DNA from: Chryseobacterium gleum
GTDB taxonomy: Bacteria > Bacteroidota > Bacteroidia > Flavobacteriales > Schleiferiaceae
DNA length: 33,566 nt
Direction: 5' to 3'
Assembly: GCA_945883565.1 (NCBI GenBank)
Contig: CAMCXO010000027.1
Coordinates: forward strand, 1-33,566
In this document: piece by piece, positions 3,564 through 21,452 of the stretch
Numbering within the stretch: the stretch's first letter is position 1
Layout: the number at the start of each line of letters is the position of its first letter
The notes under the pieces: generated by a model
Told to the model about the DNA's origin: nothing
The model's database searches: none
What the model saw: only the letters and a program-made list of their open reading frames with translations
Made by a program: the position numbers and the translations under genes

Positions 3564-4085
3564 ATGAATAAACTAGAAAAAGATAAGATAATAGACGAGC
3601 TTAAGGAAATGTTGCAGACTGCAGGCACCATTTACATTACAGATGTATCAGGTTTGAATGCAGAGAATACTAGCGCATTGAGAAGGTTATGCTTCAGTCG
3701 CAATGTGAAAATGAATGTGGTTAAGAACACTTTGCTTAAAAAAGCGATGGAGCGTTCTGGACTGAAGTTTGACGAGCTTTTTCCCGTTCTAAAAGGAAGC
3801 ACAAGCGTTATGATTGCCGATACAGGCAATGTGCCTGCTAAGCTTATCAAGGAATTTAGAAAGAAAGGTAGTATTCCTGCTTTGAAAGGTGCTTGGGTGG
3901 AAGAAGCCATTTTTATTGGCGACAATCAAATTGAAACCTTAATTAATCTCAAGTCGAAGAACGAATTGATTGGAGATGTAATAGCTCTTCTTCAATCTCC
4001 CGCTAAGAATGTCCTTTCTGCTTTACAATCTGGAGGTTCTACCTTGGCTGGATTGGTTAAAACCCTTCAGGAAAGAGATAACTAA
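3564..4085 (+). CDS. rplJ: 50S ribosomal protein L10
   Basis: L10 anchors the L12 dimers to the ribosomal stalk. The 173-residue product has the expected layout. An rRNA-binding N-terminal domain begins MNKLEKDKIIDELKEML and contains the VKNTLLKKAM motif. A long C-terminal helix that receives L12 dimers follows, ending SGGSTLAGLVKTLQERDN. It lies 14 nt after rplA and 54 nt before rplL. In Proteobacteria, L10-L12 represses translation through a long rplJ leader, and the 14-nt gap here leaves no room for such a leader outside coding sequence. Cotranscription with both neighbours is likely. Confidence 0.97.
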   Translation: MNKLEKDKIIDELKEMLQTAGTIYITDVSGLNAENTSALRRLCFSRNVKMNVVKNTLLKKAMERSGLKFDELFPVLKGSTSVMIADTGNVPAKLIKEFRKKGSIPALKGAWVEEAIFIGDNQIETLINLKSKNELIGDVIALLQSPAKNVLSALQSGGSTLAGLVKTLQERDN

Positions 4086-4139
4086 CGTACGCACTCATAG
4101 CTTCCATAAACAAACACTAACAGTAAACAACAACCCAAA

Positions 4140-4520
4140 ATGGCAGATATCAAAGAACTCGGTGATGCTCTAGTAAACCTCACCGTAAAAGAAGTAAATG
4201 AACTGGCTTCTTATTTAAAAGAAACATATGGCATAGAGCCTGCAGCGGCAGCTGTAGCCATAGCGGCCCCCGTAGGTGGAGGTGCAGGAGAGGCGGCAGT
4301 TGAAGAGAAAACATCATTTGATGTCATCCTTAAAGCAGCTGGCCCCTCTAAATTGGCAGTAGTGAAATTAGTTAAGGAATTGACTGGTCTTGGCTTGAAA
4401 GAAGCAAAAGAATTAGTTGATGCCGCCCCTAAAGCTCTAAAAGAAGGTGTTGCCAAAGATGAGGCCGATGCCCTTAAAAGCCAGCTTGAAGAAGCTGGTG
4501 CTGAGGTAGAAGTTAAGTAA
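4140..4520 (+). CDS. rplL: 50S ribosomal protein L7/L12
   Basis: L7/L12 is the multicopy stalk protein that recruits translational GTPases. The protein has 126 residues. The N-terminal dimerisation helices (about 1-35) bind L10. A flexible Ala/Gly/Pro/Val-rich hinge follows (about 34-54, containing [16 protein letters not shown]). The compact C-terminal domain starts at [10 protein letters not shown] and includes the factor-binding helix with [21 protein letters not shown]. The 54-nt upstream spacer is A/C-rich without a Shine-Dalgarno sequence. Downstream, a 105-nt spacer holding a stable hairpin separates it from rpoB. That is where bacteria commonly uncouple high stalk-protein output from lower polymerase output. 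Confidence 0.98.
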
Positions 4521-13686: not shown

Positions 13687-15555
13687 TCATCTGTTTACAT
13701 AAACATCGAAGCTTAAAGCGGGTATTACATTGGTAGTACCCGCTTTTATTTTATAATTTCCGAATAGGCTAGTTAACTCTTTGTCGCCAGAAAGTATCTC
13801 TTTGAAGCGGTTAAAGTCAATGTTCTTTTCTACTTCCGAACGGTTTAGAACACACATCATAATATCATCTTCATAGGTCCAGAAATAAACGTAGATGCCA
13901 TCAATTGGAACAAAGTGAACAAATTTTCCGGAAAACAAATGAGGAGATTGTTTTCTGAAGTTGGCTAATGTCCTGATATAATTGAAAGCATCTTCCTCAT
14001 CAGGCATACGTCCTGCAGATTCAAATTTATTCACGGTATCTTCAGACCAACCGCCAGGGAAATCTTGACGAATTACACCATGACTAGCCGTTTCTTTCAT
14101 CAATATTTCACTCCCATAATACACGCATGGAATGCCTCTAGATGTAAGTAACACGCCCATAGCCAACTTCCATTTGCTGAAATCTTGGTTAAGTTGCCCA
14201 TAAACACGAGCCAAATCGTGATTGTCTATAAACGTTACTAGCTTTTCGGGATGGGTGTACATCCAATCGCCTACCAAGCTCATATATAACTTACCTAATC
14301 CTTTGTCCCACTCGGCAGGTTCTTTGGCCATTTCTACTGCTGAAAAACAAAACTGAAAATCGAGCACAGAGGGTAATAAGCTGGTCTTTTTGCCTAAAGC
14401 CGGATTGCTGGTAAACCCACCTTGAATTTGATGGCCGCTAACCCAAATCTCACCAGTCATAAAAAAGTCAGGGTACACTTTGTGAACAGCCATAATCATG
14501 CGATTCATGAATTCTTGGTCGGGATAAGCATAAGTATCTATGCGCAAACCATCTAAACCAGCAGTAGTTATCCACCAAATGGTATTTTGAATCATGTAAC
14601 GAGCTAAATGTGGGTCGCGCTGATTTAAATCAGGCATTGTTGGCACGAACCAACCATCTTGAAAATGCTTGGTGTCGTATTCAGAAGCGTGGGGATCAAC
14701 AAAAACCTCTGCCCTGTAATTGGTTTGGGTGTACTCTGGCCAGTGGTTAATCCAGTTTTTAAAGGGAGGATTGGTATGAAAAGGATGCATACTTCCACAG
14801 TGGTTAAAAACCACATCCATAATAAGTTTCATGTTACGCGCATGCAATTTTTCTCCTAACTCAACAAATTGAAGATTGCTTCCAAAGCGTGGGTCAACAG
14901 TGTAAAAGTCTGTTATAGCATAGCCGTGATAACTTTCTTTTGGTTGATTGTTTTCTAGCAAAGGACAATTCCAAACAGTCGTTATACCCAAATCCTCTAA
15001 ATAGTCGAGCTTATTTAATATACCCTGGATATCACCACCATGTCGGCCAAAAGGTGCTTTTCGGTCTATTGTAGACTCATTCAAGTTCTTGAACGCATCA
15101 TTCTTAGGGTCGCCATTGACAAACCTATCGGGGCTTATTAAATAAACAACATCGGCCGAATGAGGCGATTGAGGGCTGTAATTGGACTTTGGTTTAATGG
15201 ACCATGTGTGACCCTTTTTTCGGCTTTTATCAGCCTTTAAAACGTATTCACCTGGTTCTACATTCTTGTTTAGCCAAATGGTTGCCAACAAATAATTGGC
15301 CGACTCACTGGGTTTCCACCCAATTAACTGCGCCCCATTGGGGCCATCCAGACTTAAATTCTGCACTTTGTCGAGATTTTCACCGTAGACCAACAGCTCC
15401 AAAGTGTCTACATTCAATCCTGTAAACCAGTTCGGCGGATCTATACGATTTATACTTTGGCCATTTAAAGAGGTTGATAACCCCCCAATAACCAGCATTC
15501 CCAAACAATTTTTCACAAAATGATTTACATCATACATTCTCTTCACCTTTTTCAT
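13687..15555 (-). CDS. Secreted GH13 alpha-amylase / cyclomaltodextrinase-type glycosidase
   Basis: This enzyme should hydrolyse alpha-1,4 glucans such as starch, maltodextrins or cyclodextrins. Numbered from the chosen ATG (622 residues), a signal peptide (about 1-33, ending LSTSLNGQ) precedes an N-terminal Ig-like module of the Cyc-maltodext_N type. The TIM barrel follows, with region I DVVFNH, nucleophile Asp340 (GLDGLRIDTYA), acid/base Glu369 (MTGEIWV) and Asp447 (FIDNHD). A C-terminal beta domain of the cyclomaltodextrinase type ends the protein. There is no T9SS sorting tail, so it is probably periplasmic. The open frame extends to 15624, overlapping the divergent gene, so 15555 is preferred. 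An ATG at 15537, with an AGGTGA-like sequence upstream, is also possible. It is divergent from a starch-binding-like protein with a shared palindrome between. Confidence 0.93.
   Translation of the reverse strand: MKKVKRMYDVNHFVKNCLGMLVIGGLSTSLNGQSINRIDPPNWFTGLNVDTLELLVYGENLDKVQNLSLDGPNGAQLIGWKPSESANYLLATIWLNKNVEPGEYVLKADKSRKKGHTWSIKPKSNYSPQSPHSADVVYLISPDRFVNGDPKNDAFKNLNESTIDRKAPFGRHGGDIQGILNKLDYLEDLGITTVWNCPLLENNQPKESYHGYAITDFYTVDPRFGSNLQFVELGEKLHARNMKLIMDVVFNHCGSMHPFHTNPPFKNWINHWPEYTQTNYRAEVFVDPHASEYDTKHFQDGWFVPTMPDLNQRDPHLARYMIQNTIWWITTAGLDGLRIDTYAYPDQEFMNRMIMAVHKVYPDFFMTGEIWVSGHQIQGGFTSNPALGKKTSLLPSVLDFQFCFSAVEMAKEPAEWDKGLGKLYMSLVGDWMYTHPEKLVTFIDNHDLARVYGQLNQDFSKWKLAMGVLLTSRGIPCVYYGSEILMKETASHGVIRQDFPGGWSEDTVNKFESAGRMPDEEDAFNYIRTLANFRKQSPHLFSGKFVHFVPIDGIYVYFWTYEDDIMMCVLNRSEVEKNIDFNRFKEILSGDKELTSLFGNYKIKAGTTNVIPALSFDVYVNR
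13715..13754 (+). terminator. Plus-strand terminator embedded in the 3' end of the opposing amylase gene
   Basis: AAAGCGGGTA (13715-13724) and TACCCGCTTT (13737-13746) form a perfect 10-bp stem with a 12-nt loop. TATTTTAT follows on the plus strand. The stem begins 31 nt after the stop of the YegP-like gene. On the minus strand the same bases encode the amylase residues KAGTTNVIPAL, and no T run follows there. It therefore acts for the plus-strand gene only. Confidence 0.7.
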
Positions 15556-15562
15556 ACTTTTG

Positions 15563-15585
15563 ACTATTGTAAAGTTTACACTAAG
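15563..15585. promoter_or_regulatory. Palindrome in the amylase / starch-binding protein divergent promoter region
   Basis: TGTAAA-G-TTTACA occupies 15568-15580 and is a perfect 13-bp palindrome with one central base. With one mismatch on each side it extends to TA at 15565-15566 and TA at 15582-15583. It lies 12 nt upstream of the amylase ATG and 25 nt upstream of the plus-strand ATG. LacI-family operators often read TGTAAA-CG-TTTACA, so this could be a shared operator controlled by maltose or starch. No regulator gene is in the window. I see no convincing TAnnTTTG element for either gene here. Confidence 0.5.
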
Positions 15586-15605
15586 TAACCCAAAACTCAG
15601 CAAAA

Positions 15606-16937
15606 ATGAAGAAACTCTACGCAACTGCGGCAGTTTTATTTGCCGCCATCATTGCGAATGCACAAGTGAACCTCACTTTTCAGGTTGACATGCAAAATCA
15701 AACCGTAGGCGCCGATGGCGTTCACGTTGCCGGAAGCTTTCAGGCAGCAGCCGGTTTTCCAGGCGATTGGGATCCAGCTACCACTGCTTTAACAGACCCA
15801 GATGGTGATAACATTTACGAGGTAACTGTAAGCGTTCCTGCAGGTACTTACCAGTATAAGTTTGTTAATGGCAATGCATGGGGAAGCGACGAAAGCGTAC
15901 CGTCATCTTGTGCCGTAAGCAATAACCGTGAAGTGGTTGTGGCAGCTTCTGCTATTACCACCCCTAACGTATGTTTCGGAAGCTGTGACCCATGTCCTTC
16001 AGGACCCATTCCGGTTTTCAACATCACTTTCGAAGTGGATATGAGCACTACTTGCGATGTAGACTCTGTTGACGTAGCCGGTATGATGAATAACTGGAGT
16101 GGTGGCGATATGCTTAGAGATCCTGATGGTGATGGTATTTACAGCATCACATTACCCATCGACTCGGGCGAAGTTCAATACAAGTTCCGCCGCTATTTCC
16201 AAGGCAGCGCTAACTGGGAAGGCATTGCTAATAGAATTCATACAGCTAATGGCGTGGCCACAGTGCCTTACACCTGCTTCAATGCTACTACGGCTTGTTC
16301 GCCAGTTCCTGCTCCGGCCGATGTTACTTTCCGTGTTGACATGAGCAATGAAGCCCCTGATGCTTCTGGTATTTTCGTAATTGGTGATTTCACCTCACCA
16401 GCTTGGCAGGCCGGTGCCATTCAATTGTTGCCCGATCCAAATGCTCCAGGTTTCTACCAAGCTACCTACAATATGTGTCCAGGTACTTTCTTCTGGAAGT
16501 TTGTAAACGGTAACCCCGATCCAAACGTATCAGTTGTTGAAGTGGAAGAAGGCTTCCCAAATGGCGACAGCATTTGTAATCAGCCCAATGGTTTAGGTGG
16601 TTTTAACCGGGTTACCACCCGCACCAACAACCAGCCTTTAACTTTGGCGTATGTTTTCAACACTTGCACAGAAGTAATTGGTCTTGAGGAAGGTTTTGCA
16701 ACTCAATACATCGAAGTATACCCAAATCCTGTAAATGGTGTTTCGCACATCAATTTGGGCAATGGCGAGTTGTATAATGTGAGCATCTACGACATGAGCG
16801 GCCGTCAGGTATTAAATTTAGGCGAGCGCAATGGTGAAGTAGAAATTAATGGCAACACTTTAAAAAGTGGTATTTACTTGGTAAACATCGTTCGCAAGAA
16901 CGGTGAAACCCGTACCACCCGCTTTGTGGTTCAATAA
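15606..16937 (+). CDS. T9SS-exported protein with three starch-binding-like modules
   Basis: The protein has 443 residues. A signal peptide (1-20, ending ANAQ) is followed by three related modules at about 21-124, 138-231 and 238-354. Each opens with a VDM motif (FQVDM, FEVDM, FRVDM). Modules 1 and 2 share DPDGD-IY then a YKF motif; module 3 has a diverged version with FFWKFVNGN. This pattern fits the CBM20/CBM48-like beta-sandwich that binds starch or glycogen. Cysteines are frequent, suggesting disulfides outside the cytoplasm. Residues 368-443 form a type A T9SS sorting domain (VYPNP, then a KSGIYLVNI motif), so the protein should end up on the cell surface or be released. No catalytic domain is present. 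The divergent amylase suggests it captures glucans on the surface for that enzyme. Confidence 0.88.
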   Translation: MKKLYATAAVLFAAIIANAQVNLTFQVDMQNQTVGADGVHVAGSFQAAAGFPGDWDPATTALTDPDGDNIYEVTVSVPAGTYQYKFVNGNAWGSDESVPSSCAVSNNREVVVAASAITTPNVCFGSCDPCPSGPIPVFNITFEVDMSTTCDVDSVDVAGMMNNWSGGDMLRDPDGDGIYSITLPIDSGEVQYKFRRYFQGSANWEGIANRIHTANGVATVPYTCFNATTACSPVPAPADVTFRVDMSNEAPDASGIFVIGDFTSPAWQAGAIQLLPDPNAPGFYQATYNMCPGTFFWKFVNGNPDPNVSVVEVEEGFPNGDSICNQPNGLGGFNRVTTRTNNQPLTLAYVFNTCTEVIGLEEGFATQYIEVYPNPVNGVSHINLGNGELYNVSIYDMSGRQVLNLGERNGEVEINGNTLKSGIYLVNIVRKNGETRTTRFVVQ

Positions 16938-18196: not shown

Positions 18197-18229
18197 TTGG
18201 CGTTATTTGGTGCAAGGCTTATACTTTTA
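18197..18229 (+). promoter_or_regulatory. Possible promoter of the SBBP/CHU_C gene
   Basis: TTG (18197-18199, within TTTGG) and TACTTTTA (18222-18229) are separated by 22 bp, within the 17-23 bp known for Bacteroidota promoters. The -7 box differs from TAnnTTTG only in its last base. It ends 4 nt before the ATG at 18234, again suggesting a very short leader. Confidence 0.45.
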
Positions 18230-18233
18230 TACC

Positions 18234-21200
18234 ATGCCGCGTTTAAAGTTACTGTTTTTATGGTTATCTCATTTAGTTTCATTCGTCCTTAGCGCACAGC
18301 CCCTATTTGAAGAGAATCGTGGCCAGTGGCCTTCGCAAGTTTTGGTCTATGCTGCCATGCCGAATGCGGAAATGTATTTTGAAGGCAATCGAATACGTTG
18401 GAATTTGAGAAAAGCCGAAGATGCCGCTGCTTACCATGAATTCCATCACCGCCCTCAGGGTGTTTTACCGCGTTTGCATTTGCACACAATTCAAATGGAA
18501 CTTGTAAGTTGCCAGTTAGGCAACTTGCATTTTAAAGGCAACACTTCTTCCACCAACTTCAACTATTTTTCTTCCAAAGTACAAATTGGGGGTATAAAAC
18601 GGTATTCCGCCTTTGTTCAAAAAGAGGTGTATCCGGGTATTCACATGCATTTTCAAAAAAACCAAGATCTTAAATACGAGTTTGAAGTTAGTCCACATGC
18701 AAAGCCCGAACAAATTAGAATGAAATGGACTGGACAACAAGGGCTTTATATTAATGAAAAGGGTGAGTTGGTATTGGAAACTTCTGTGGGCGAAATGATT
18801 GAGCAGAAACCGTATGCTTACCAAATTCTAGATAATGGAAGTCAAGTTCCGATTGAATGCCACTTCGTTTTGAATCAAGATGAAATTAGTTTTGATTTGG
18901 GTCCATATGATTCAAGTAAACCCCTTATTGTAGATCCGGTTTTGGTGTTTAGCAGTTACAGCGGATCTTCTTCCGATAATTGGGGATTTACGTCTACTTT
19001 CGATCAAGCCGGAAATTTGTATGTAGCGGGAATTGTATTTGGAGCAGGGTATCCAATAACCTTAGGTGCCTACGATACCAGTTTTGCCGGGGTTACCGAT
19101 ATCGCCATCATGAAGTTTAACCCAGATGGCACTAACTTGATTTATAGTACCTATTTGGGAGGCTCCAACAACGAACAGCCCCATTCTTTAATTTGCGCCA
19201 ACGACGAACTGGTTTTAATGGGGGTAAGTGGTTCGCCCGATTTCCCGGTTAGCTCCAATGCTTACCAAAATACCTTCGCAGGTGGAACCCCAACTTCCGG
19301 AACAGGTGCTACTTTTCATGCTGGAACTGACATAATAGTGTGTCGATTCTCGGCTGATGGCACCCAGCTTTTGGCCTCTACCTTTGTGGGAGGCAGTGGT
19401 AACGATGGCCTTAACGGGCAAATTAGAAACCAGTATGGCGACGATACACGCGGAGAAATTATCGTAAACCAAGCTAAGGAGGTTTTTGTAGCCAGTAGCA
19501 GTTTAAGCCAAGATTTCCCCCTAATGGGTGCTGGTTTAAATACAGTGGCCGGTGGGGGGCAGGAAGGGGTGGTTTTTAAACTTTCGGCAGATTTGAGTCA
19601 GCTTTTGTGGGGTTCTTATGTTTCTACCCAAGGCAACGACGCTGCTTTGGGTCTGCAATTTGGCGCTAACGATACCTTATACGTTTGTGGCGCTACAGCC
19701 GGCGATAGCCTGTTTTACAATCCGGTAGGTGGTAAAAACAGCTTTTTAGGTGGAAGCACCGATGCCTATATTGCTCTTTTTGAACAACAGAATGGCGAAA
19801 TGCTAAACTTCAAATATGTAGGGACTCAGGGGCGGGATGTGGCCTTTTTTATAGATACCGACCCCATTGGTCGACCATGCATTCTTGGTCAAACCGATGG
19901 CGTTCGCCCAACGGTGCCAACCAATCTCTATGGCGACAACAACTCGCGTCAATTTGTCATGATGCTTTCGAATGGACTAGATCAAGACCTGCGATTTACC
20001 AGAATTGGTCGAGGTGTTCAGGCCTATGATTTTGCTCCTTCTGCCTTTAGAATTGATTCTTGTGGGGTATTGTATTTAGCTGGATGGGGAGGCCCTTTGG
20101 CTTCGCCTGGCAGCAGTGTTCAGGGCCTTTACGTAAGCAATAATGCTTTTCAATCCACCACCGATGGCAATGACTTTTATTTTTTAAGTCTCGATTTGAG
20201 CTGGCAAGAAGCCAATTATGCCACCTATTTTGGTGGTTCGGGCGTAGCTGAGCATGTAGATGGGGGCACCAGTCGGTTTAGTAAAAAAGGGGTTATTTCT
20301 CAAGCCATTTGTGCAGGTTGTGGAGGCGTATCCACAACGCCCGCACAACCTTCAAGTGTTTGGTCGCCAACCAACAACAGCACCAATTGCAATATGATGG
20401 GGGTAAAAATGGCTTTCGAACAGCAATCTACCCAAGCACGTATAAACCTTTTAACCGATACCGTTTGTCTTGGAGATACTGCCCGTTTTATGCTAAACTC
20501 TGCCAATGCCAATGTTGTGTATTGGGATTTTGGCGATGGCAATGCCGATACGGTCTCAGGAATAGAACAATGGGTTTATAACCAAACGGGGGCTTATCAA
20601 ATTCTGGTAAAAGCCTATAACGCCTTTTGTGGAAGCTCAGATTCGGATTCGGTAATGGTTTATGTTATTGATCCCTCTAACAATGCACTTTTTACAGTAG
20701 ATTACGATTCCTGCGATGTGGACTATAAGGCCCGTTTTGCTTTAAGCGGAAGTTTTATTAACCCCAGTTTCCATACCACAACCGGTGTGGTTTTAAACAG
20801 CAATCCTGTCGATTTTTCTTATTCCAATCCAGGTATATATAAACCTTGGGTCAGTTATACATCTTCGGCATGTTCTCAAACATACTACGATACCTTAACT
20901 GTTAAATTTAATGCGCTTAAGCTGAGTTTAAATGTGCAAATAGATTATGTTCCCTGCCGAGATGGACTCCAATTGAAACTGGTTATTCAGAACAGACCCG
21001 ATATTCCGATTACCATCGATTTTGGAGACGGAAACGACAGCGCAGGCAGGGGCGCTTTTTGGGTTTACCAATATCAACAAGCCGGAAATTATACCATTAA
21101 GGTTTCTATAGAGGACAGCACTTGTAAACAAAGTCAGGTCTTTGAAAAGCCTGTAAGCATAGGCTTGGGCGTGCCTCCCGAACGCCAATTCCCCAATGTG

Positions 21201-21452
21201 TTTACCCCGAACGGAGATGGACTGAATGATGTTCTCGATTTCGAAACCTCACTTGGTTTTTCTTTAGGTGATAACAGCCAGTTAAATATTTTTAATCGGT
21301 GGGGCCAATTGGTATTTACAGGCCGCGCAATTTGGGATGGAAAGTTTAGCAACACCCTTTGTGCACCCGGGGTTTATTTTTGGACCCTCACTTTAGACAC
21401 CGGTTGTGGCGATCTCGAAACACATAGGGGTCTGGTGCACTTAATGAATTAA
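18234..21452 (+). CDS. Large T9SS type B surface protein with SBBP-like propeller, PKD and CHU_C domains
   Basis: The protein has 1072 residues from ATG 18234. A TTG 27 nt upstream would spoil the signal peptide and is rejected. The signal peptide covers 1-21 (ends LSAQ). An N-terminal domain (about 22-240, starting PLFEENRGQWPSQVLVYAA) is of the type that precedes SBBP repeats (DUF7948-like). Repeated beta-propeller-like units follow (about 240-720), with GNLYVAG, STYLGGS and FPVSSNAYQNTF motifs. Two PKD-like modules contain FGDG motifs near residues 764 and 927. The C-terminal about 88 residues are CHU_C (FPNVFTPNGDGLNDVL, then IFNRWGQLVF), the type B T9SS sorting signal. It is predicted to be secreted and surface-attached. 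The function is unknown; adhesion is a common guess. An ArsC-like gene follows 5 nt after the stop. Confidence 0.9.
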   Translation: MPRLKLLFLWLSHLVSFVLSAQPLFEENRGQWPSQVLVYAAMPNAEMYFEGNRIRWNLRKAEDAAAYHEFHHRPQGVLPRLHLHTIQMELVSCQLGNLHFKGNTSSTNFNYFSSKVQIGGIKRYSAFVQKEVYPGIHMHFQKNQDLKYEFEVSPHAKPEQIRMKWTGQQGLYINEKGELVLETSVGEMIEQKPYAYQILDNGSQVPIECHFVLNQDEISFDLGPYDSSKPLIVDPVLVFSSYSGSSSDNWGFTSTFDQAGNLYVAGIVFGAGYPITLGAYDTSFAGVTDIAIMKFNPDGTNLIYSTYLGGSNNEQPHSLICANDELVLMGVSGSPDFPVSSNAYQNTFAGGTPTSGTGATFHAGTDIIVCRFSADGTQLLASTFVGGSGNDGLNGQIRNQYGDDTRGEIIVNQAKEVFVASSSLSQDFPLMGAGLNTVAGGGQEGVVFKLSADLSQLLWGSYVSTQGNDAALGLQFGANDTLYVCGATAGDSLFYNPVGGKNSFLGGSTDAYIALFEQQNGEMLNFKYVGTQGRDVAFFIDTDPIGRPCILGQTDGVRPTVPTNLYGDNNSRQFVMMLSNGLDQDLRFTRIGRGVQAYDFAPSAFRIDSCGVLYLAGWGGPLASPGSSVQGLYVSNNAFQSTTDGNDFYFLSLDLSWQEANYATYFGGSGVAEHVDGGTSRFSKKGVISQAICAGCGGVSTTPAQPSSVWSPTNNSTNCNMMGVKMAFEQQSTQARINLLTDTVCLGDTARFMLNSANANVVYWDFGDGNADTVSGIEQWVYNQTGAYQILVKAYNAFCGSSDSDSVMVYVIDPSNNALFTVDYDSCDVDYKARFALSGSFINPSFHTTTGVVLNSNPVDFSYSNPGIYKPWVSYTSSACSQTYYDTLTVKFNALKLSLNVQIDYVPCRDGLQLKLVIQNRPDIPITIDFGDGNDSAGRGAFWVYQYQQAGNYTIKVSIEDSTCKQSQVFEKPVSIGLGVPPERQFPNVFTPNGDGLNDVLDFETSLGFSLGDNSQLNIFNRWGQLVFTGRAIWDGKFSNTLCAPGVYFWTLTLDTGCGDLETHRGLVHLMN

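Follow-up and report, generated by a model that had tools for sequence, protein, structure and literature searches.

SusE and SusF of the Bacteroides thetaiotaomicron Sus system are regarded as outer-membrane lipoproteins that assemble with SusC and SusD (SusCD). Here we describe a divergent gene pair, a SusA-type GH13 gene and a gene for a modular protein (termed the binder), in a 33,566-nucleotide stretch of DNA assigned to Chryseobacterium gleum (contig CAMCXO010000027.1; the window). The binder is probably an alpha-glucan-binding protein with several X25 modules that is exported by the type IX secretion system (T9SS), does the job of SusE/SusF and cooperates with SusCD and the SusA-type GH13. 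The two systems are alike in combining a SusA-type GH13 with an outer X25-type glucan binder and in having SusC-SusD in the genome; SusF is described with three X25 modules (PMC9112005). They differ in that the binder carries a T9SS tail and no lipoprotein anchor, matches none of PF14292, PF16411 and PF17142 (E ≤ 0.1), is encoded divergently from SusA and lies with it outside the SusCD locus.

Other described systems share single features with this locus. Alpha-glucan polysaccharide utilization loci (PULs) of marine Flavobacteriia likewise have GH13, GH65 and GH31 genes with SusC/SusD, but for the looped-SusD PULs a binder of the SusE-like kind is reported (PMC11093988); the terms 'T9SS' and 'CBM' (carbohydrate-binding module) do not occur in the main text of that paper. 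Ruminococcus bromii Sas20 and Sca5 are also stand-alone X25 starch binders without an enzyme domain, but they belong to a Firmicute dockerin/cohesin amylosome, two X25 modules form one binding cleft, and no T9SS is involved (PMC9112005). The best solved-structure sequence match of the first module of the binder is the X25 module of the Bacillus acidopullulyticus pullulanase (2wan), which, unlike it, is an accessory module within an enzyme. On the side of regulation, the NrtR-family proteins BtAraR and XylR are known sugar regulators in Bacteroidetes, with a Nudix-like domain, an NrtR/AraR winged helix and sugar-use genes with SusCD in the regulon (PMC4666351). The candidate regulator discussed below resembles them in these respects, whereas the regulon proposed here is one of alpha-glucan and glycolysis genes; 'starch' and 'flavobacter' do not occur in the main text of PMC4666351. 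X25 modules, SusA, SusCD, T9SS tails and NrtR regulators are each already known. Neither a T9SS-delivered multi-X25 binder divergent with SusA and sharing a motif with SusCD nor an NrtR starch regulon was found in the open-licence literature searched.

The divergent gene pair

The GH13 gene and the binder gene diverge across about 50 bp, with the following features:

13687–15555, minus strand: SusA-type GH13, 622 aa from the ATG at 15555
15555–15562, plus strand: TACTTTTG, similar to a -7 element (likeness by eye)
15568–15585, plus strand: operator-like site TGTAAAGTTTACACTAAG, intergenic between the GH13 and binder genes
15606–16937, plus strand: binder gene, 443 aa, with signal peptide, modules 1, 2 and 3 and T9SS type A tail
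15606–15665, plus strand: signal peptide, residues 1–20, ending in NAQ (by eye)
15666–15998, plus strand: module 1 (X25/AMPK glycogen-binding type), residues 21–131, from Pfam, conservation and fold
16011–16298, plus strand: module 2, residues 136–231, from fold and conservation
16314–16670, plus strand: module 3, residues 237–355, from family alignment; one platform Trp kept, the second missing
16716–16934, plus strand: T9SS type A C-terminal sorting domain, residues 371–443 (PF18962, TIGR04183)

By its sequence, the GH13 protein is SusA-type (neopullulanase/cyclomaltodextrinase-like). Cyc-maltodext_N, Alpha-amylase and Cyc-maltodext_C are all above the Pfam cut-off, and the closest PDB matches are the neopullulanase SusA (9fyz, E 9.9e-140) and a Flavobacterium-type cyclomaltodextrinase (1h3g, 2.1e-123). 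Residues D340, E369 and D447, which we take to be the catalytic acids of GH13, are invariant in 17 aligned homologues. The N-terminus is signal-like by eye and no T9SS tail was found by the Pfam/TIGR04183 family search; the enzyme is predicted to be periplasmic. Its open reading frame (ORF) was listed from a TTG start (13687–15624), which overlaps the binder gene; translation therefore more likely begins at the ATG at 15555. This ATG leaves an intergenic gap of 50 bases, and the gaps computed for related pairs range from 25 to 207 bases. The sequence TACTTTTG in front of the site resembles, by eye, the Bacteroidota -7 element TAnnTTTG.

The original prediction, made from the letters of the window, had described a GH13 enzyme paired with a T9SS-sorted protein of three CBM-like modules. 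This description stood: both ORFs are present, the GH13 domains, module 1 and the T9SS tail score above their cut-offs, module 2 is recognised by model and alignment, and module 3 by family alignment.

Architecture of the binder

The tail of the binder matches Por_Secre_tail (PF18962, E 2.4e-13) and TIGR04183 (59.8 bits, cut-off 23), and SprA of the T9SS is present in the same genome, as expected for a type A cargo protein. Residues A19 and Q20 at the end of the signal peptide are invariant in 19 homologues, and no Cys of the kind that would anchor an outer-membrane lipoprotein was seen by eye after the signal stretch.

Module 1 has Pfam matches above cut-off to X25_BaPul_like (PF22058, E 9.3e-17) and AMPK1_CBM (PF16561, E 1.2e-9); Pfam gives no separate match for modules 2 and 3 of the window protein, and both are recognisable in the family alignment. 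Conservation among the 19 homologues is high in all three modules. In module 1, W55, K85 and N107 are present in all and W92 in 18; in module 2, W164 and W204 are present in all and K193 in 18; in module 3, W267 and N334 are present in all and K298 in 18. We take these residues to belong to the AMPK/CBM20 ligand site. The X25/CBM20-CBM48 type of site, two aromatics plus Lys/Asn, is complete in modules 1 and 2, and module 3 has one Trp.

Structure models were consistent with this assignment for two modules. A model from a six-sequence alignment had a mean predicted local distance difference test score (pLDDT) of 58.6, and a single-sequence fold reached 34.5. In the six-sequence model, which is of low confidence, module 1 resembles the AMPK glycogen-binding domain 1z0n (Z 8.5, root-mean-square deviation (rmsd) 2.5, 81 aligned) and module 2 matches CBM20 domains, best the glucoamylase 2vn4 (Z 10.8, rmsd 2.5, 91 aligned). 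Module 3 was poorly modelled (pLDDT <50 at residues 308–378). A Foldseek search with the six-sequence model placed Ig/Fn3-type chains on top with low TM-scores and large rmsd, with CBM26 and CGTase further among the hits, and is not taken as evidence; SusE/SusF are not among the 50 matches listed for the model (VIA), which counts nothing against a likeness.

A profile of the 19 homologues matches glucan-binding domains, namely the pullulanase X25 module 2wan (3.3e-8), the SEX4 glucan phosphatase (2.5e-4) and a glucoamylase starch-binding domain (7.1e-4). AMPK beta subunits match less strongly (0.015 and above), and unrelated haemagglutinin chains appear from about 0.13 upward. In a tree of 37 module sequences, the module 2 sequences form a clade of 10 rows (support 99/92) and the module 3 sequences one of 9 rows (97/93), and module 1 rows form no single supported clade. 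Since the two supported clades span genera and take in the last two modules of a 2521-aa T9SS amylase of the same genome, the modules would have specialised before the genera split.

The motif DPDGD is present in modules 1 and 2 but not in module 3 of the window protein, as had been noted before. As a sign of different binding properties it did not hold up and was rejected as a functional mark: the strict form occurs in module 1 of only 3 of 19 homologues, and the loop varies, reading TQVG.. in many relatives. What sets module 3 apart in the aligned proteins is the missing second Trp (position 304), found in none of the 19 homologues.

The missing platform Trp of module 3 would also fit modules that bind another glycan or have no more than a spacer function in a T9SS surface protein. 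Two module proteins on contig C3 of the genome (L072:3503–5932, L071:8183–9391), which show no tie to starch genes, point the same way, as does a module 1-like module that a Prolixibacteraceae protein combines with a cellulase-like stretch (L112:6186–9121, by eye), because of which such modules need not be starch-specific. However, the near-invariant W/K/W/N of module 1 and W/K/W of module 2, the profile matches to glucan-binding domains and the pairing with a maltodextrin enzyme make this explanation quite improbable.

Conservation of the pair and its genomic setting

We searched 40 genomes, the own genome included. Full-length binders were found at 19 loci in 18 genomes, and a divergent SusA gene adjoins the binder in 18 of the 19; in the exception (G008) the binder lies at a contig end and SusA is on another contig beside an unrelated gene. 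A search for SusA gave 28 matches in 25 of the 40 genomes (E ≤ 1e-60). Eighteen of these are paired, two stand with a short T9SS protein (G014, G015), five have no adjoining binder, and three (G019:C488, G023, G025) are undecidable, lying at contig ends or matching as a fragment. The original prediction had staked itself on the pair staying together in relatives and on an aromatic platform in the modules; the pair is kept as described, and the platform is kept in modules 1 and 2.

Genes beside the pair in the 18 relative loci include a major facilitator superfamily (MFS) transporter (8/18), a further GH13 (6/18; 46–100% identity to the copy in L064, L064 itself included) and GH65 (5/18). The pair locus L060 holds two genes related to those after susD of the own genome. 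In the window, rpoC precedes the pair and a release-factor-2-like gene follows it (both named by eye). Also downstream of the pair, 18207–21452 encodes a 1081-aa protein that has DUF7948 and PKD and carries a T9SS type B tail.

No SusCD was found among the ORFs of the window, which hence lacks the adjacent SusC-SusD of a PUL. The earlier statement that the pair comes without SusCD is correct in this respect, but not for the organism: the genome has a single SusD_RagB match on contig C20, in the locus L074, where two small genes come after GH13(T9SS)-SusC-SusD. The secreted protein of about 285 aa encoded after SusD (L074:8893–9744) has no Pfam match; its counterpart in L060 (3901–4761) has DUF4961, a domain also seen near the N-terminus of T9SS GH13 and GH31 enzymes (L069, L101, L194, L196), and it might be another part of the glucan system.

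Further alpha-glucan genes are spread over the genome. The 2521-aa protein on contig C18 (L069:6935–14500) combines a GH13 domain with nine X25/CBM-type modules, fn3 and a T9SS tail, so that the module series of the binder is here fused to an enzyme, the last two modules being of the module 2 and module 3 types. On contig C52 (L070:394–2904), an 836-aa T9SS protein has X25-type modules and fn3 and no enzyme domain. The genome also encodes a GH13 of 854 aa that carries modules and a T9SS tail, a GH31 with a T9SS tail, glgB, GH57 and GH65. Contig C3 has more module proteins of CBM48/AMPK type (L072:2080–5932, L071:8183–9391), of which the 809-aa one bears a T9SS tail; another NrtR-family gene, the second of the genome, lies close by (L072:1211–1984). 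In Saprospiraceae, T9SS proteins with related modules are encoded immediately upstream of SusC/SusD-like genes (L109, L110; names by eye).

The absence of SusCD from the window, together with the MFS transporters beside 8 of the 18 relative pairs, which could take up the products, would agree with a self-contained starch system independent of SusCD, as implied in the original prediction. An inner-membrane MFS transporter, however, does not account for passage across the outer membrane, and the genome has SusC-SusD with a GH13 under the same upstream motif as the pair (see below); we therefore rejected this option, which is highly unlikely.

A shared motif and a candidate regulator

The motif TGTnnnnnnTACACTWAR precedes the SusCD locus, the pair and other alpha-glucan genes. 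The pattern TGTNNNNNNTACACTWAR has 13 exact matches in the own genome compared to 3 for the backward control, and TGTAAAGTTTACACTAAG at 15568–15585 is one of the 13. If one mismatch is allowed, the window has one further match, in rpoB-side coding sequence (0.58 expected). The 13 matches correspond to 12 places, one site being matched on both strands. Besides the pair and the SusCD locus, the genes with a site in front of them are those for the 2521-aa amylase and the 836-aa binder, the GH65 operon, the gene for GH31 and glgB; another site lies between pfkA and an NrtR-family gene. The pair regions and five regions of the own genome (C18, C20, C27, C30, C52) are those in which the motif was first noticed, by eye, and are therefore not independent evidence for it. 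Of the other seven places, three fit an alpha-glucan role (C5 with GH31; C26 with pfkA and NrtR; C57 with glgB and GH57), and four are unfitting or unjudgeable (C40 with a T9SS protein; C4:16 and C58:117 at contig ends with identical flanks; C4:63348 in an ORF).

The strict pattern is present in 9 of 18 testable pair regions. A relaxed form, fitted after viewing these regions, is found upstream of the binder in all 18, whereas dinucleotide shuffling, repeated for 200 rounds, gave 0.02 on average and at most 1. In other genomes, matches (control in brackets) number 12 (0) in G018, 11 (5) in G016, 2 (0) in G013 and 8 (3) in G037. Leaving out three G016 matches and both G013 matches, the places outside the pair that fit are 4/11 in G018, 3/7 in G037 and 4/6 examined in G016; several others are inside ORFs. 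The motif is found before SusC in G016 and G037. None was found in L171–L173 or L175–L178, and L174 has one, upstream of SusA at a contig end. The motif appears to link the binder to other starch-use genes.

On contig C26 (L102), the NrtR-family gene (3613–4326) diverges from pfkA-gapA, and the site (4405–4422) lies between them as a symmetric copy with two 6-bp arms, AGTGTA-N5-TACACT. The encoded protein matches NrtR_WHD (E 1.8e-25), AraR_C and Nudix, so that a Nudix-like domain and an NrtR winged helix are encoded directly beside the site. A motif site is in the same position between pfkA and an NrtR gene in G016 and G018. The shared site most likely belongs to an NrtR-family repressor that senses sugar. 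A LacI protein as first-choice regulator was rejected: the genome has a single one (C55), and no strict motif is near its gene (L105).

There is nevertheless a substantial chance, somewhat below even, that the motif is read by another regulator such as this LacI protein, or is a promoter element and not an NrtR operator. The CTWAG flank is asymmetric and its orientation relative to the binder is constant in the pairs. Moreover, the cluster in G015 (L173) contains an NrtR gene among alpha-glucan genes and yet has no motif, strict or relaxed, in its 12.8 kb, and the G014 cluster (L172) is likewise motif-less. On the other hand, the motif is also found reversed before the C18 and C30 genes, and the two-arm site beside the NrtR gene, the motif sites at the same place in G016 and G018, and the lack of a strict match near the LacI gene speak for the NrtR protein.

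The binder and the SusE/SusF families

PF14292 and PF16411 (SusE/SusF) have no match in the own genome; both were detected in the positive control, Bacteroides ihuae. Among the 40 genomes, PF14292 was found in seven, and G029 has a genuine SusE after SusD. Twenty-four SusA genomes could be classed (G023 left out; full-length and short proteins both counted as binder), and stand-alone SusE frames (368–382 aa, over cut-off) are encoded in none of the 20 binder-bearing and in three of the four binder-less genomes (p 0.002 in a Fisher test, which ignores ancestry). In G014 and G015, each from another genus, the SusE slot of a SusC-SusD-binder-SusA operon is occupied by a short T9SS protein with weak likeness to X25. 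This is the most direct hint of a replacement.

The proposal that the binder is a SusE/F analogue delivered by another export route is in keeping with its X25-type modules (module 1 by Pfam, module 2 by fold, module 3 by family alignment only), its T9SS tail, the presence of SprA, the lack of PF14292 and PF16411 matches, and the short T9SS protein between SusD and SusA in G014 and G015. The binder would thus work like SusE/SusF yet fall outside those families by the tests made. Overall, the original prediction is partly confirmed in what it observed and partly supported in how it was interpreted.

Several findings, in addition to the module beside a cellulase-like stretch, speak against this role. 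In the own genome, the pair lies outside the SusCD locus, which is on another contig, so that the window binder is not encoded with SusC-SusD as SusE/SusF are. Five SusA loci have no adjoining binder (G008, G026 twice, G027, G029). With 17.9 and 19.7 bits, the two short proteins fall short of the Pfam cut-off for X25 (27). The paralogues in L069 and L070 do reach the PF16411 cut-off, but only when weak matches are summed over the whole protein; no stretch passes by itself. The contrast in SusE tracks taxonomy, 19 of the 20 binder-bearing genomes being of one family, and it shrinks to 3/20 versus 3/4 if any PF14292 match is counted: three binder-bearing genomes (G005, G009, G017) have PF14292 matches over cut-off within frames of 2573–2684 aa, and G009 also has a 361-aa frame whose score of 22.4 bits does not reach the cut-off. 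Because of these matches, SusE-type domains are not absent from the three genomes. The large frames themselves (G005:C10 L205, G009:C57 L206, G017:C1 L204) are unlike a SusE of about 370 aa.

Discussion

We propose that the binder, located on or near the cell surface, would concentrate starch, glycogen or maltodextrin, and that T9SS-secreted amylases would cut the glucan held by it. SusC-SusD would import the resulting pieces, and the periplasmic SusA-type GH13 would cut the imported maltodextrins for the maltose-phosphorylase pathway. Expression of both genes of the pair would start from a single short region that holds one operator-like site; this site, common to the SusCD locus, the secreted amylases and glycogen and glycolysis genes, would be read by the NrtR-family repressor.

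T9SS type A cargo proteins can be anchored or released. The binder could be an adhesin, at the surface or released, by which cells attach to particles of starch or glycogen, and have no role in SusCD uptake. In the own genome the pair is not linked to SusCD, and a further multi-module binder without an enzyme is encoded (L070). But the motif is common to the pair and the SusCD locus, the divergent SusA-type partner is present in 18 of 19 loci, and in G014 and G015 a T9SS protein stands in the SusE slot. We thus regard an adhesin-only function as unlikely and a SusE/SusF-like role in uptake as the probable one.

A wider proposal can be made tentatively, with the balance leaning against it in its full form: across many genera of this Flavobacteriales family, X25 binders exported by the T9SS may have taken the place of lipoprotein SusE/SusF, and one operator, read by an NrtR-family sugar sensor newly tied to starch, may govern all alpha-glucan use (outer binders, secreted amylases, SusCD, a maltose phosphorylase operon, glycogen enzymes and phosphofructokinase).

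If a T9SS protein does take the SusE/F role, SusCD uptake can use binders brought by another machine. Annotation with SusE/SusF models would then miss such binders, and genomes recorded as having SusCD without SusE/F would be misread. The shared motif would provide a concrete, testable alpha-glucan regulon for environmental Flavobacteriales, in which the recycling of alpha-glucan has been proposed to carry much carbon (PMC11093988).

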